NCBI RefSeq assembly: GCF_002159625.1
Contig: NZ_NFIZ01000014.1
Location: 1 to 62,463, forward strand
Length of the DNA: 62,463 nucleotides
Origin: Olsenella sp. An285
GTDB taxonomy: Bacteria; Actinomycetota; Coriobacteriia; Coriobacteriales; Atopobiaceae
Reading direction: 5' to 3'
Shown here: positions 13,707 to 20,157 of the stretch, one piece after another
Numbering within the stretch: position 1 is the stretch's first letter
How the letters are laid out: each line of letters begins with the position of its first letter
The notes under the pieces: model-generated
What the model was told of the DNA's origin: nothing
Database searches by the model: none
What the model saw: the letters and a program-made list of their open reading frames with translations, nothing else
Program-made: the position numbers and the translations under genes

Positions 13707-13880
13707 GGCGCACCTCCGCGTTGGGGACTTTCCCACAGTGTAGGACATGCGTGTCAGAGACGTGTGGGCCGCGTGGCGGCCGGGCCGTTAGCCGCCGCGC
13801 GAATCACGGTCCGTACGGCTCGCGCTATAGTAGAGGTTCGATGCTCCATGACCGAGAACGCCGTCCGAGGGAGGCCCACC

Positions 13881-15554
13881 ATGGCCGATTACAAGTCCGA
13901 CATCGAGATCGCCCAGGAGGCGAAGATGCTGCCCATCTCCGAGGTCGCCGCGCGCGCCGGCCTCACGGAGGAGATGCTCGAGCCCTACGGGCGCACCAAG
14001 GCCAAGGTGGACATCCACTCGCTCGCCGACCGCCCGAGCAAGGGCAAGCTCGTCCTGGTGACCGCCATCAACCCCACGCCCGCGGGCGAGGGCAAGACCA
14101 CCACGTCCGTGGGCCTCGCCGACGCGATGAACCGTCTCGGCCACCAGACCATGCTCTGCCTGCGCGAGCCCTCGCTCGGCCCCGTGTTTGGCATCAAGGG
14201 CGGCGCCGCGGGAGGCGGCTACGCGCAGGTCGTCCCCATGGAGGACATCAACCTGCACTTCACCGGCGACTTCCACGCCATCGGCGCGGCCAACAACCTC
14301 TGCGCCGCCATGCTGGACAACCACATCAAGCAGGGCAACGCCCTGGGCATCGACCCCCGCCGCATCGTCTGGAAGCGCTGCGTGGACATGAACGACCGCC
14401 AGCTGCGCAACGTGGTGGACGGCCTGGGCGGCGTCGCGGACGGCATGCCGCGCCAGGACGGCTTTGACATCACCGTTGCGTCCGAGGTCATGGCGGTCTT
14501 CTGCCTGGCCACGGACCTCGCCGACCTCAAGGCCCGCCTCGCGCGCATGGTGATCGCCTACACCTACGATCGCCAGCCCGTCACCGTCGCGGACATCCAC
14601 GCCGAGGGCGCCATGACGGCGCTTCTCAAGGACGCCATCAAGCCCAACCTGGTCCAGACCCTCGAGGGCAACCCCGCCTTCGTCCACGGCGGCCCCTTCG
14701 CCAACATCGCCCACGGCTGCAACTCCGTCATGGCCACCACCACGGCCATGAAGCTTGCGGACTACGTGGTCACCGAGGCCGGCTTTGGCGCGGACCTCGG
14801 CGCGGAGAAGTTCCTCGACATCAAGTGCCGCGCCACGGGCCTCGTCCCCTCCGCGGTGGTGCTCGTGGCCACCGTCCGCGCCCTCAAGTACAACGGCGGC
14901 GTGCCCAAGGCCGAGCTCACCACCGAGAACCTCGAGGCCCTCGAGGCCGGTCTTCCCAACCTGCTGCGCCACGTCTCCAACGTGCAGAACGTCTGGGGCC
15001 TGCCCGTGGTCGTTGCCATCAACGCCTTCCCCACGGACACCCAGGCGGAGCTCGACCTCGTCGAGCGCCGCGTCCGCGAGCTGGGCGTCAACGTCGCGCT
15101 CTCCGAGGTCTGGGCCAAGGGCGGCGAGGGCGGCGTCGCGCTCGCCAACGAGGTCGTGCGCCTCTGCGAGGAGCCGGCAAACTTCACGTACGCCTACGAG
15201 CTCGATGGCACGCTCGCCCAGAAGATCGAGGCCATCGCCACGCGCGTCTACCACGCCGACGGCGTTGACTTCACCGCGCCGGCTCGCCGCCAGATGGCCC
15301 AGCTCGAGGAGCAGGGCTTCGGCGGCCTGCCCATCTGCATGGCCAAGACCCAGTACTCCTTCACCGACGACCAGAACAAGCTGGGCGCCCCTGAGGGCTT
15401 CCGCGTCACGGTGAGGAACCTGCGCGTCTCCGCCGGCGCCGGCTTCGTGGTGGCGCTCACGGGCGACATCATGACCATGCCGGGCCTGCCGAAGGTCCCC
15501 GCGGCGGAGAAGATCGACGTCACGCCCGACGGCAAGATCGTCGGCCTGTTCTAG
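13881..15554 (+). CDS. fhs: Formate-tetrahydrofolate ligase (10-formyl-THF synthetase)
   Basis: A 557-residue ATP-dependent enzyme that joins formate to THF, the entry step for formate into one-carbon metabolism. The P-loop TPAGEGKTT (about 65-73), [21 protein letters not shown] region (about 97-117) and C-terminal [11 protein letters not shown] motif are all intact, and the length matches the family. ATG 13881 follows GAGGGAGGCCCACC. It heads a tight block fhs-fchA-folD-FNT-folE, where the formate channel likely supplies its substrate. A TATAGT -10-like box lies near 13824. Confidence 0.97.
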
Positions 15555-15576: not shown

Positions 15577-16218
15577 ATGGGAGACAGGTTCACCGAGCTC
15601 AGCTGCGAGGAGTTCTCCGATAGGCTCGCCGCGCGCGAGAGCACGCCCGGCGGGGGCGGCGCCGCCGCGCTCGTGGGCGCTCTCGGCACGGCGCTCTGCT
15701 CGATGGCGGGCGCCTTCACGCAGGGCAACCCGCGCTGCGCCGAGCACGAGGCCGACGTCGCCGCCCTCATGGAGGAGGCCGAGGACGTCCGCTACCGCCT
15801 GCTCGAGCTCGTGGAGGAGGACGCCGACGGCTTTGGCCCCGTGCTCGCCGCGTGGCGCATGCCCAAGGACGATCCCGCGCGCGCCGAGGCCATCGAGAGC
15901 GCCGTCGAGGGCGCCTGCATGGCCCCGCTGGCGATGATGGGGGAGTGCTGCCGCGCCATCGTGCTCCTGGAGCAGATGGGTACCATGTGCTCCGGGCAGC
16001 TCATCTCGGACGTCGCGTGCGGGGCGCTCCTCGTGCGCGCGGCCCTCGAGTGCGCGAGCGTGAACGTCTACGTCAACACCTCCGCCCTTAAGGATCGCTA
16101 CGTGGCGGAGCGCATCGAGGGCTCCGTGAGCGAGCTTCTGGACGAGTACGTTCCGCGCGCGGAGCGGCTCGCGCTCTCCGTCACGGACCGCATCGGCGGG
16201 AGCGTGAGGCATGGCTGA
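15577..16218 (+). CDS. fchA: Methenyl-THF cyclohydrolase / formimino-THF cyclodeaminase family protein
   Basis: A 213-residue all-helical FTCD_C family protein, with the typical N-terminus TPGGGGAAALVGALGTALCSMAG (about 23-45) and length near 208 residues known for FchA. In an operon with fhs and folD it most likely interconverts 10-formyl-THF and methenyl-THF. This role is important here because the following FolD lacks its cyclohydrolase lysine. It lies 22 bases after fhs and overlaps folD by 8 bases. A formimino-THF cyclodeaminase role (histidine breakdown) is less likely, as no hut genes are near. Confidence 0.88.
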   Translation: MGDRFTELSCEEFSDRLAARESTPGGGGAAALVGALGTALCSMAGAFTQGNPRCAEHEADVAALMEEAEDVRYRLLELVEEDADGFGPVLAAWRMPKDDPARAEAIESAVEGACMAPLAMMGECCRAIVLLEQMGTMCSGQLISDVACGALLVRAALECASVNVYVNTSALKDRYVAERIEGSVSELLDEYVPRAERLALSVTDRIGGSVRHG

Positions 16219-17065
16219 GCTCCTGAGGGGAGCCCCCGTAGCCAAGGCCATAGTCGAGGACGTCGCCGCGCGTGCGGCGTGCCTCGCGGACGCTGGCGTG
16301 ACCCCCCGGCTCGCCCTCGTGCGCGTGGGCTCCCGCCCGGACGACCTCGCCTACGAGCGGGGTGCCGAGAAGCGCTGCCTCGCCGCGGGGATTGCCGTGG
16401 AGCGCCGCGAGCTGCCCGAGGGCTGCTCGCAGGACGAGCTCGAGGGGACCTTGCGCGGGCTCTGCTCGCGGGGGGACGTTCACGGCGTCCTGCTCTTCCG
16501 CCCGCTTCCCGCACATCTCGACGAGGCCGCGTCCTGCGCCGCCATAGCCGCCGAGAAGGACGTGGACGCCGCCACGCCGTCGTCGCTCCTGTCCACGCTC
16601 GCCGGGGCGGGCGCGGGCTTCGCCCCCTGCACGGCTGAGGCCGTGATCGCCCTTCTCGACCACTACGGCGTGGAGCTCGACGGCGCCGAGGTCACCGTCG
16701 TGGGCCGCTCCCTCGTGATCGGGCGCCCGGTCTCCGCGCTTCTCCTTGCGAGGAACGCCACCGTCACCACCTGTCACACCCACACGCGGGACCTCGCCGC
16801 GTGCTGCCGGCGCGCGGACGTCGTCGTGGCGGCGGCGGGCAGCGCCCGCATGCTCGGCGCGGAGTGCGTTCGCGAGGGCCAGGTCGTCGTTGACGTGGGC
16901 ATAAACTGGGACGAGGCCGAGGGCCGCCTCGTGGGCGACGTCGATCTCGACGCCGTGGCCCCCGTGGTCCTTGCCGCAACGCCGGTGCCCGGGGGCATCG
17001 GATCCATAACAACCGCTATCCTGGCCCGACACGTAGTGGAGGCCGCAGAGAGGACCTGCCGATGA
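16211..17065 (+). CDS. folD: Methylene-THF dehydrogenase (FolD family), cyclohydrolase site degenerate
   Basis: A 284-residue FolD with intact NADP-binding fold (VVGRSLVIGRPVSALLL near 164-180; PVPGGIGSITTA near the end). The residues known to drive cyclohydrolysis are altered: the YxxxK motif is Y48-ERG-A52, with alanine in place of lysine, and the glutamine of the QLPLP-type motif is F96 (FRPLP). The aspartate of KDVD (D119) is kept. The protein is thus predicted to be a dehydrogenase only, with FchA next door doing the hydrolase step. It overlaps fchA by 8 bases and the FNT gene by 4. Confidence 0.93.
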   Translation: MAELLRGAPVAKAIVEDVAARAACLADAGVTPRLALVRVGSRPDDLAYERGAEKRCLAAGIAVERRELPEGCSQDELEGTLRGLCSRGDVHGVLLFRPLPAHLDEAASCAAIAAEKDVDAATPSSLLSTLAGAGAGFAPCTAEAVIALLDHYGVELDGAEVTVVGRSLVIGRPVSALLLARNATVTTCHTHTRDLAACCRRADVVVAAAGSARMLGAECVREGQVVVDVGINWDEAEGRLVGDVDLDAVAPVVLAATPVPGGIGSITTAILARHVVEAAERTCR

Positions 17066-17892
17066 AGGTGACCGAGAAGCCATCGTCTTCCTACAGCGGG
17101 GCGATGACCCCCGCCTCGATGGAGCTCAAGAACGAGCGCGTCGCGGCGACCAAGGCCAACACGGACGTGGTGAGCGCCCTCGCGCTCTCCGTCATGGCGG
17201 GCGCCTTCATCGCGCTGGGCGCCACGTTCATGCTCGTGATCAAGTCCGACGCCTCGCTGCCCTTCGCGGCGACGCAGCTTCTGGGCGGCTTCTCGTTCAC
17301 GTTGGGGCTCTTCCTCATCCTCGCCGCCGGTGCCGAGCTCTTCACCGGAAACTGCCTCATGGTGATGGGCGCCCTCGCGGGGCGCTTCTCGTGGGGGAGA
17401 CTCCTCAAGAGCTGGGCGCTCGTGCTCGCGGGCAACCTCGTGGGCGCCGTCCTCGCCGCATGCCTCATGATCGCCGCGGGCGTGGCCACCGCCAACGGCG
17501 GCGCCCTCGGCGAGGCCGCGATAGCCGTCGCGGAGGGCAAGGTCGCCCTCGGCTGGGTCACGGCCTTCGCGCGCGCCGTCCTCTGCAACCTGCTCGTGTG
17601 CCTCGCCGTGTGGGTCGGCCACGCCGCCGTCTCCGTCACCGACAAGTTCTTTTCGGCGCTTCTCCCCGTCATGGCCTTCATGGCCTGCGGCTTCGAGCAC
17701 TGCGTGGCCAACATGTTCTTCCTTCCCTACGCGCTCATGCTCCAGGCGACGGGCGTGGCGGGCACGGTGGACGCCGGCGGGGTCCTGAGCAACCTCACCG
17801 CGGCCACGCTCGGCAACCTCGTGGGCGGCGTCGTGCTCGTGGGCGTATCCTACTGGTTCGTGTACGGCCGCTCGCGCAAGAGCGGCGAGTAG
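17062..17892 (+). CDS. Formate/nitrite transporter (FNT) family channel
   Basis: A 276-residue integral membrane protein with six helices and the FNT landmarks: GAELFTGNCLMVM (about 92-104) and a late FEHCVANMFFLP (about 212-223). It is most similar in pattern to formate channels of the FocA type. The start overlaps the folD stop (ATGA). Its place between folD and folE, in an operon headed by formate-THF ligase, argues for formate rather than nitrite transport; no nitrite reductase is present in the window. Direction of flux is unknown. Confidence 0.9.
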   Translation: MKVTEKPSSSYSGAMTPASMELKNERVAATKANTDVVSALALSVMAGAFIALGATFMLVIKSDASLPFAATQLLGGFSFTLGLFLILAAGAELFTGNCLMVMGALAGRFSWGRLLKSWALVLAGNLVGAVLAACLMIAAGVATANGGALGEAAIAVAEGKVALGWVTAFARAVLCNLLVCLAVWVGHAAVSVTDKFFSALLPVMAFMACGFEHCVANMFFLPYALMLQATGVAGTVDAGGVLSNLTAATLGNLVGGVVLVGVSYWFVYGRSRKSGE

Positions 17893-17910: not shown

Positions 17911-18504
17911 ATGGGTTTGGAGAAGAACGCACAGGGCTTTGGGCCCATAGACAGGCCGCGCGTGGAGGCGGCCGTCCGCGAGCTCCTGCTCGCGATAGGG
18001 GAGGACCCCGACCGCGAGGGGCTCCTGGGCACGCCCGACCGCGTGGCCCGCGCCTGCGAGGAGATCCTAGGAGGGACCCAGGAGGACCCTGGCGCGCACC
18101 TTCGCAAGCAGTTCCACGAGCCGGGCAACCAGGAGATGGTGATCGTGAAGGACATCCCCTTCTCCTCGCTCTGCGAGCACCACATCCTGCCCTTCACCGG
18201 CCGCGCCCACGTCTGCTACATCCCGCGCGACGGTCGCATCACCGGGCTCTCCAAGATCGCGCGCTGCGTCTCGGGCTACGCGCGGCGCCTCCAGGTTCAG
18301 GAGCGGCTCACCGGGCAGATCGCCGATGCGATGGTGCGCGAGCTCGACCCCCTGGGCGTGCTCGTGGTGCTGGAGGCCGAGCACACCTGCATGACCATGC
18401 GCGGCGTGCGCGCGGCCGGCGCCCTCACCACCACCTCCGCTGTCCGGGGGTGCCTGCGCGACCTCAAGACCCGCCAGGAGGCCCTGAGGCTTCTGGGGCT
18501 GTAG
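17911..18504 (+). CDS. folE: GTP cyclohydrolase I
   Basis: A 197-residue type IA enzyme, the first step of folate (dihydroneopterin triphosphate) synthesis. The zinc ligands are visible: C88 and H91 in LCEHHILPF and the cysteine in [10 protein letters not shown] near 160; the QERLT motif near 133 is present. It follows the FNT gene by 18 bases, so it belongs to the one-carbon operon. Other pterin-branch genes (folB, folK, folP) are not in the window. Confidence 0.96.
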
Positions 18505-18725: not shown

Positions 18726-18750
18726 GGCGAGGAGCTACGAGGGAGTGGGT

Positions 18751-20157
18751 ATGTATCAGCTGCCGTTCGAGGTGCCGGAGATTTCGTACGAGGAGGCGCT
18801 CGGTATCGTGCACGGGGCGCTGCGCTTTGGCATCTGCCCCCTGCTGGAGACCGTCGTCGACATGCTCGCGGAGCTTGGGGACCCGGACCTTGCCTTCGAG
18901 AGCCTCCAGGTGGTGGGGACCAACGGGAAGACGTCAACCTCGCGCTACGCCGCGGCGATCCTCTCCGGCGAGGGGCTCCGCACCGCCCTCTACACGTCGC
19001 CCGAGCTCGTGAGCTACACCGAGCGCATGGAGGTCGGCGGCTGCCCGGTGTCAGAGGAAGCCTTCGCGCATGGCGTCTCCGCCGCGCGCGTGGCAGGGGA
19101 GCGCGTGAACGCGCGCCGCGCCGCCGCGGGCGAGCGGCCCTACGACATCACCGAGTTCGACACGCTCACCGTGGCCGCCATGGTGGTTTTTGCCGAGGCC
19201 GGGGTCGACGTGGCCGTGCTCGAGTGCGGCATGGGCGGGCGCTGGGACGCCACCTCCGCCGTGAAGTCCATCCGCACCGTCGCCGTCACGGGCATAGGGC
19301 TCGACCACATGCATGTCCTGGGCAACACGCTCGAGGAGATCGCTGGCGAGAAGGCCGCCGTCATCCGGCATGGCCGGCGCTGCGTGCTGGGCGTGGGCAC
19401 CGCCACGCCGGACTCCGTGGAGGACGTCTTCCTCGACCGCGTCCGTGCGGAGGGCGTGACCCCGGTGCTCCTTCGTCCCGAGCGTCTCGAGGACGCGGCG
19501 GGGGAGATGCATCCCGACGTCCCGCGTGAGCACGTCGACCTCCCTCGTGCGAGCTACCTCGTGACCAAGCGCCCGCACCGCCTGGGTGCCCCGCTTGAGC
19601 TCACCGTGACCACCCCCCGCGCCACCTACGCTGAGCTCGCCGCCCTCAAGCCCGCCTACCAGGCCGCCAACGTCGCGTGCGCCGTGGCGCTTGTGGAGGA
19701 GCACCTCGGCCGAGTGCTCGACGCCGACGCGCTCTTCACCTCCGTCGTCCAGTGCCCCACGCCCGGTCGGTTCCAGCTGCTGCGCCCCGAGCCCCCCGTT
19801 CTTATAGACGCCTGCCACAACCCGCAGTCCGTGGCCACCTTCCTCACCGCCGTGGACGCAGTCGTGCCCAGCCGCGAGGAACGCCCGGTCCTTCTCGCCG
19901 CGGTGCTTGCGGACAAGGACGTGCGCGGCATCGTGGACCTTCTGGCGGGGGCGTTCCCGCGTGTGGCCGTCACGCAGACGTCGTCCCCGCGCGCGCTTCC
20001 TGCCGCGGAGCTCGCTCGAATCTTCCGTGAAGCGCGCGCTGAGGTGACGGAAACGTATCCAACGGTTGAGGCTGCAACGTCGGCATTATGTGGAGAATCG
20101 TACGTGGCCTGCGGATCCATCACCCTCGCTGGCGAGCTTGCGGCCCATTTCCTGTAG
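18751..20157 (+). CDS. folC: Folylpolyglutamate synthase / dihydrofolate synthase
   Basis: A 468-residue Mur-ligase-fold enzyme that adds glutamate to folates. It has the P-loop VVGTNGKTST (about 54-63), ECGMGGRWDATS (about 158-169), and a C-terminal glutamate-ligase domain with LIDACHNPQS. ATG 18751 follows GAGGGAG. It is separated from folE by 246 bases holding two hairpins, so it may have its own transcript control. The N-terminal segment before the P-loop is slightly extended but normal for actinobacteria. Confidence 0.95.
   Translation: MYQLPFEVPEISYEEALGIVHGALRFGICPLLETVVDMLAELGDPDLAFESLQVVGTNGKTSTSRYAAAILSGEGLRTALYTSPELVSYTERMEVGGCPVSEEAFAHGVSAARVAGERVNARRAAAGERPYDITEFDTLTVAAMVVFAEAGVDVAVLECGMGGRWDATSAVKSIRTVAVTGIGLDHMHVLGNTLEEIAGEKAAVIRHGRRCVLGVGTATPDSVEDVFLDRVRAEGVTPVLLRPERLEDAAGEMHPDVPREHVDLPRASYLVTKRPHRLGAPLELTVTTPRATYAELAALKPAYQAANVACAVALVEEHLGRVLDADALFTSVVQCPTPGRFQLLRPEPPVLIDACHNPQSVATFLTAVDAVVPSREERPVLLAAVLADKDVRGIVDLLAGAFPRVAVTQTSSPRALPAAELARIFREARAEVTETYPTVEAATSALCGESYVACGSITLAGELAAHFL

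Follow-up and report, generated by a model that had tools for sequence, protein, structure and literature searches.

A FolD protein lacking the YxxxK lysine, encoded beside FchA in Olsenella sp. An285, points to a division of the dehydrogenase and cyclohydrolase steps

Why does a locus that encodes FolD, the protein family known for bifunctional methylene-tetrahydrofolate (THF) dehydrogenase and methenyl-THF cyclohydrolase enzymes, also encode a separate protein of a cyclohydrolase family, and which of the two carries the cyclohydrolase step? The question is raised by a 62,463-nucleotide stretch of DNA from Olsenella sp. An285 (contig NZ_NFIZ01000014.1; the window hereafter), in which the genes fhs, fchA, folD, a FocA-like gene, folE and a Mur-ligase-family gene follow one another in this order, all on the + strand. 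The features are as follows.

13845..15554, + strand: fhs, formate--tetrahydrofolate ligase (PF01268, 2.2e-272; PRK13505, 934.6 bits, cut-off 652); start codon uncertain, with the reading frame open from 13131
15577..16218, + strand: fchA, FTCD_C family, predicted methenyl-THF cyclohydrolase, 213 aa (PF04961, 1.3e-51)
16211..17065, + strand: folD, without the lysine and the glutamine, predicted dehydrogenase only, 284 aa (PF00763, 1.8e-27; PF02882, 3.4e-53; alignments to solved FolDs)
16352..16366, + strand: codons of Y48-E-R-G-A52, the YxxxK motif without its lysine (translation, alignment)
16496..16498, + strand: codon of F96, glutamine in bifunctional FolDs (translation, alignment)
16565..16567, + strand: codon of D119, the pterin-binding aspartate, kept (translation, alignment)
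17062..17892, + strand: formate/nitrite transporter, FocA-like (PF01226, 3.5e-67; below the cut-offs of the specific NCBIfam models)
17911..18504, + strand: folE, GTP cyclohydrolase I (PF01227, 2.2e-68; NF006826, 251.4 bits, cut-off 162)
18748..20157, + strand: Mur-ligase-family protein, start uncertain (PF02875, 2.5e-9; PF08245, 1.7e-7)

The fchA and folD genes overlap by 8 bases, and folD and the FocA-like gene by 4 bases. The Mur-ligase-family gene is probably FolC (folylpolyglutamate synthase), a name taken from the folate neighbourhood. In the genome (2.41 Mb, 95% complete), folD is the sole match to PF00763 and fchA the sole match to PF04961, and a second canonical FolD that would cover the lysine loss was rejected because the genome has one FolD only.

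The translation of the window FolD reads Y48-E49-R50-G51-A52 at the YxxxK motif and F96-R97-P98-L99-P100 at the PLP stretch. In each of the five alignments shown with solved FolDs, A52 is aligned to the lysine of YxxxK and F96 to the glutamine before the PLP/PVP stretch, and Y48 and the last aspartate of KDVD/KDAD (D119) are kept. The first-pass annotation had described the same Y48-E-R-G-A52 motif, F96 before PLP and a kept D119, with which the translation and all five alignments agree. Thus, among the residues characteristic of the bifunctional type, the tyrosine and the aspartate are present, and the lysine and the pre-PLP glutamine are absent. Both FolD domains score above their cut-offs, PF00763 with 96.3 bits (cut-off 32.8) and PF02882 with 179.7 bits (cut-off 27). 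Among the NCBIfam FolD models, the best match is 241.1 bits compared with a cut-off of 421, and none of the 25 matches listed out of 30 is over its cut-off. An AlphaFold2 model of the window FolD, computed from 23 alignment rows, has a pLDDT of 92.4 and superimposes on most FolD/MTHFD structures with Z scores of 35–40 over at least 270 residues, the best being human MTHFD2 (Z 40.2); with 5nhs, a bifunctional FolD, the score is 24.4. As judged from this predicted model, the full FolD fold is intact in the window protein.

The neighbouring gene had been described as an overlapping fchA of the methenyl-THF cyclohydrolase family, and the PF04961 match and the 8-base overlap bear this out. The best solved relative of the window FchA is 7vg4, a methenyltetrahydrofolate cyclohydrolase (6.4e-28). 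When aligned with 122 FTCD_C proteins from fetched loci, the majority of which are encoded beside folD, the window FchA keeps 24 of the 27 positions conserved at >=85%, including PGGG 24–27, D82, P117, S144-D145, N167, D173 and all positions that round to 100%, and differs from the commonest residue at positions 44, 110 and 162. Against the NCBIfam FchA model NF045657, the window FchA scores 143.5 bits, below the cut-off of 275. This cut-off, reached by none of the seven proteins tried (window FchA included), seems narrow, and two hut-linked (histidine-pathway) proteins score higher than the window FchA, at 167.6 and 202.2 bits. FchA and hut-linked cyclodeaminases are not told apart by NCBIfam. 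A small FTCD_C tree parts FchA from the hut-linked rows, but with no support (SH-aLRT 5); its hut side holds three rows of the six intended, the remaining three loci having yielded no FTCD_C that could be read from the stretch fetched, and one of the rows used (L209) was called hut without annotation. None of the 246 Coriobacteriia genomes has FTCD_N (glutamate formiminotransferase) over its cut-off, and the lone sub-cut-off match lies in an FchA-negative genome (G139). This renders a role of FchA on histidine-derived formimino-THF improbable, and an assignment of the coriobacterial FTCD_C proteins to histidine breakdown was rejected on this ground. For the same reason, the window FchA is unlikely to act on formimino-THF alone.

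If the two proteins share the work in this way, loss of the lysine should go along with fchA in other genomes, as the first-pass annotation had suggested to check. Class samples comprised 246 Coriobacteriia genomes (FolD in 240, FTCD_C in 146) and 146 Clostridia genomes (FolD in 139, FTCD_C over cut-off in 53); for the latter, 95% completeness was asked, and the sample includes its centre C. difficile (G254), known beforehand to have a FolD without the lysine (K-less, as compared with lysine-bearing, or K+). Residues were read from fetched loci in 321 FolDs of 199 Coriobacteriia and 121 Clostridia genomes. Coverage is complete for FTCD_C-positive FolD-bearing genomes (146/146 and 52/52), and FolDs were read in 53 of the 94 FTCD_C-negative FolD-bearing Coriobacteriia and 69 of the 87 such Clostridia. 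The counts exclude second PF00763 matches in five FchA-negative Coriobacteriia (G053, G071, G083, G131, G149) and two further copies of the window FolD (L001, L032). One Clostridia genome with a K+ FolD (G392) has an FTCD_C match under the Pfam cut-off and was scored absent, and another (G411) has FTCD_C and no FolD match.

The expected agreement is found in 321/321 FolDs read: the lysine is absent from all 199 FolDs of FTCD_C-positive genomes and present in all 122 of negative ones, with no exception. Fisher p values for these counts take no account of kinship and are not to be relied on uncorrected. In Coriobacteriia, 147/147 FolDs of 146 FchA-positive genomes lack both the lysine and the glutamine, and 53/53 of FchA-negative genomes have both. 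In Clostridia, the lysine is missing from 52/52 FolDs of FTCD_C-positive genomes, 46 of which also lack the glutamine and 6 of which keep it, and both residues are present in 69/69 FolDs read from FTCD_C-negative genomes. A motif change that is strain-local or due to chance or sequencing error was rejected, the same change being found in 147/147 FolDs of FchA-positive Coriobacteriia. In these 147 proteins, the lysine position is occupied by A (122), I (11), L (10), V (3) or C (1) and the glutamine position by F (106), L (33) or M (8), and Y48 and D119 are invariant. Over all 321 FolDs, the tyrosine is present in 321 and the aspartate in 320, with one E, which is what retention of folate binding and of the dehydrogenase step would predict.

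Many K-less FolDs also have in common new residues that flank the lost ones, namely PDDL before the tyrosine, E after it and R after the lost glutamine, and this signature might serve an altered active site. Very divergent K-less FolDs with Pfam scores of 32–78 bits are seen at four Clostridia loci (L320, L321, L322 and L440, in G312, G418, G362 and G381, respectively); these genomes are 1.3–2.2 Mb in size, and their FTCD_C proteins are also low-scoring, at 76–126 bits.

Of the 52 Clostridia genomes with both genes, 26 have FTCD_C and FolD no more than 1.5 kb apart and the other 26 have them non-adjacent. Seven of the non-adjacent pairs share a contig, with a smallest distance of 2.2 kb, and 19 are split between contigs, so that linkage may be concealed by breaks in the assembly. 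An operon thus seems not to be required for the co-occurrence, and operon linkage alone was rejected as its cause.

Named genomes were searched separately with a K-less FolD from Clostridia as the query, which yielded 80 loci, comprising 67 K-less FolDs, 12 K+ FolDs and one (L276) too short for the motif to be read. FTCD_C is encoded within the fetched flank of 60/67 K-less loci, as compared with 0/12 K+ loci. For 42 of the 80 loci whole genomes were searched, and 29 of the 30 K-less-type genomes (L276 being counted here by type) have FTCD_C, versus 4 of 12 K+ genomes. The single K-less genome without FTCD_C is a MAG of 1.6 Mb (G262). Of the four FTCD_C-bearing K+ genomes, three belong to Paenibacillus and lack FTCD_N, and the fourth, a clostridial MAG, does have FTCD_N; a K-less FolD thus goes with FTCD_C, yet FTCD_C does not force loss of the lysine. 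FTCD_N is present in 18/30 genomes of the K-less type versus 1/12 K+ genomes, and most of the 18 have more than one FTCD_C; some FTCD_C proteins there may therefore serve histidine breakdown. In two K-less genomes (G259 and G260), the sole FTCD_C lies ~2–3 kb from FTCD_N. K-less FolDs were read in this set in C. ljungdahlii, C. drakei, C. magnum and Tepidanaerobacter species.

Further observations were made on this set. The three Paenibacillus loci (L282, L283, L287) combine a K+ FolD with an FTCD_C protein and no FTCD_N. Two FolDs each are found in one Dethiosulfatibacter and two Tepidanaerobacter genomes; both copies are K-less in two pairs (L228/L230 and L246/L266), and in the third (L262/L276) one copy is too short to read. 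Apart from this set, folD is also present in three PLSDB 'plasmid' records (L203, L207 and L208) that seem to be whole or partial chromosomes, namely NZ_CP154629 (2.6 Mb), NZ_LT559118 (11.9 Mb) and NZ_OY725717 (0.9 Mb).

In a sample of Actinomycetota, FTCD_C matches occur in 78 of 248 genomes, and the best-scoring 30 FTCD_C loci were read. FolD lies within the ±1.5 kb flank of 26/30 loci and is K-less in 26/26. Eleven of these FolDs belong to Coriobacteriia already counted, and 15 come from outside Coriobacteriia, with motifs such as Y-R-G-Q/A-V with L-R-P, and Y-E-G-G-A with F-A-P.

How many independent events underlie these counts was examined in FolD trees built with the lysine and glutamine columns removed; the trees are unrooted, and the direction of change is not readable from them. 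A well-supported branch sets the K-less FolDs of the window type apart on one side, with support of 95/94 for 18 rows and, in another tree, 100/100 for 20 rows. The window FolD is a member of this K-less clade, which is old, and has had no recent lysine loss of its own. A second K-less group occurs in Clostridia (L348, L364, L366, L370 and L371), in which the lysine is replaced by glutamine and the pre-PLP glutamine is kept; FTCD_C is present in 5/5 of these genomes, and in 5/5 the two genes are separated by >40 kb or do not share a contig. Three to five rows per tree represent this group, which the best trees place with canonical FolDs, implying two changes of the lysine. In AU tests on 47 and 43 hand-chosen rows, a single origin of the K-less state was not rejected (p 0.269 and 0.422), and an independent-pairs test found one supported pair (two on all branches), too few for a p value. 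The hundreds of agreeing genomes hence correspond to few independent events on the gene tree. Within one coriobacterial family (f3), 17 genomes (13 of genus g27, 3 of g38 and 1 of g46; e.g. G021, G024 and G042) have a canonical FolD and no FchA, and relatives within f3 and g27 carry the K-less FolD together with FchA, indicating that FolD type and fchA changed together there at least once.

Taken as a whole, these observations make it very probable that the window FolD is a methylene-THF dehydrogenase only and that FchA is the cyclohydrolase. FolD would bind folate via Y48 and D119 and oxidise or reduce the one-carbon unit with NAD(P); without the proton-transfer lysine and the positioning glutamine, it would neither open nor close the methenyl ring. 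FchA would perform the second step, the interconversion of 5,10-methenyl-THF and 10-formyl-THF, and would thereby link FolD to Fhs, where formate enters, possibly supplied through the formate channel. The residues, the gene row and the 321/321 co-occurrence all support the earlier suggestion that a bifunctional enzyme appears split in two beside Fhs and a formate channel. The activities of FolD and FchA, their co-transcription and the direction of change are what we infer from these data.

The K-less FolD could still be bifunctional through other residues, such as E49 and R97 of the YERxA/FRPLP signature, with FchA as an extra and perhaps faster enzyme, which we consider unlikely. In the accessible portion of PMC3338484, Lys54 is the general acid/base, Gln98 positions Lys54 and Asp121 binds the pterin, and this role of the lysine argues against a FolD that is bifunctional without it. 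By comparison, the silkworm MTHFD mutants K53A and Q97A retain cyclohydrolase activity (kcat/Km 0.097 and 0.22, respectively, versus 0.13; PMC6443876, excerpt), in favour of a bifunctional K-less FolD, as are the new residues beside the lost ones. A strict need of the cyclohydrolase activity for the lysine, as stated in the first-pass annotation, is therefore contested. A dispensable FchA also predicts K-less genomes without it, and these number 0/198 in the class samples, although the MAG G262 of the named set is one. The lysine (Lys56) and the glutamine are assigned to the dehydrogenase step too, according to an excerpt of PMC3368264, so that loss of the lysine might cost dehydrogenase activity as well.

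Shared ancestry alone, with two old FolD types of which one happens to occur with fchA and no functional dependence, is a very unlikely account of the co-occurrence. The window-type K-less FolDs do form one supported side of the trees, and a single origin was not rejected, as such an account would have it; yet the 26 Clostridia genomes with non-adjacent genes are still paired, both states occur within f3 and g27 and are always paired there, and the five-row lysine-to-glutamine group, placed with canonical FolDs by the best trees, likewise has FTCD_C. It is even harder to believe that FchA is a formimino-THF cyclodeaminase, or has another activity, in a cell that has no cyclohydrolase and makes 10-formyl-THF by Fhs alone. 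PF04961 covers cyclodeaminases too, and the hut-linked proteins outscore the window FchA on the NCBIfam FchA model; however, the placement of the gene between fhs and folD, the lack of any FTCD_N over cut-off in the Coriobacteriia sample and the cyclohydrolase 7vg4 as best solved relative all speak against such an activity. The preferred assignment therefore remains FolD as the dehydrogenase and FchA as the cyclohydrolase.

More generally, anaerobic bacteria probably have two kinds of FolD, a K+ bifunctional kind and a K-less, dehydrogenase-only kind that is tied to FchA whether or not the genes are linked. One residue would then predict the need for FchA, and the K-less FolDs of Collinsella, C. 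difficile, C. ljungdahlii, Peptostreptococcus and Nitrospirota would not be bifunctional. The FolD/FchA split is already known in principle, reportedly from C. perfringens, and the new part is how regular the pairing is. If this is true, the cyclohydrolase step is misassigned in many gut anaerobes and acetogens, in which fchA and not folD carries this central one-carbon step, and metabolic models and gene-essentiality predictions change. Furthermore, presence or absence of the lysine would be a sequence rule open to direct assay, and the genomes would offer natural pairs in which to study why two reactions that a single enzyme carries in most organisms are uncoupled in anaerobes. In Collinsella aerofaciens, the annotated K-less FolD carries the name "bifunctional", and in the passages available, the FolD of fchA-bearing acetogens is called bifunctional for C. 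carboxidivorans (PMC2946384), Sporomusa (PMC12003927) and acetogens at large (PMC10103890). Excerpts of other papers mention a monofunctional enzyme of Peptostreptococcus productus (PMC6443876) and a separate FchA in some microbes, the latter with reference to the C. perfringens study of Aluri et al. (2016, Microbiology 162:145; cited in PMC7219735). Among the matches listed in a search of open-access literature, no printed statement of a lysine-to-FchA rule was found, which is a weak negative.

Our comparison with known systems reveals that the window FolD and the canonical bifunctional FolDs (E. coli 1b0a, T. thermophilus 6v6y and human MTHFD1) have both Pfam domains, the fold, the tyrosine and the aspartate in common. 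The differences occur at the lysine and glutamine of the canonical enzymes, where the window FolD has A and F. Yeast Mtd1, an NAD-dependent monofunctional methylene-THF dehydrogenase, is without the lysine and glutamine of the bifunctional enzymes. Its structure (1edz) has the same fold as the model of the window FolD, with a Z score of 30.5, weaker than that of most bifunctional FolDs (35–40). In Clostridium perfringens, FolD is said to be a dehydrogenase only and FchA the cyclohydrolase, with Fhs present, a division of labour that, as reported, is like the one proposed here. The FolD of C. perfringens reportedly has glutamine at the lysine position and in this respect resembles the second clostridial group (L348, L364, L366, L370 and L371), which lies apart from the window clade on the best trees. 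The same three neighbours, fhs-fchA-folD, are found in the Wood-Ljungdahl clusters of the acetogens Acetobacterium woodii (PMC6925170) and Tepidanaerobacter acetatoxydans (PMC3584212), as described in the accessible parts of these papers.
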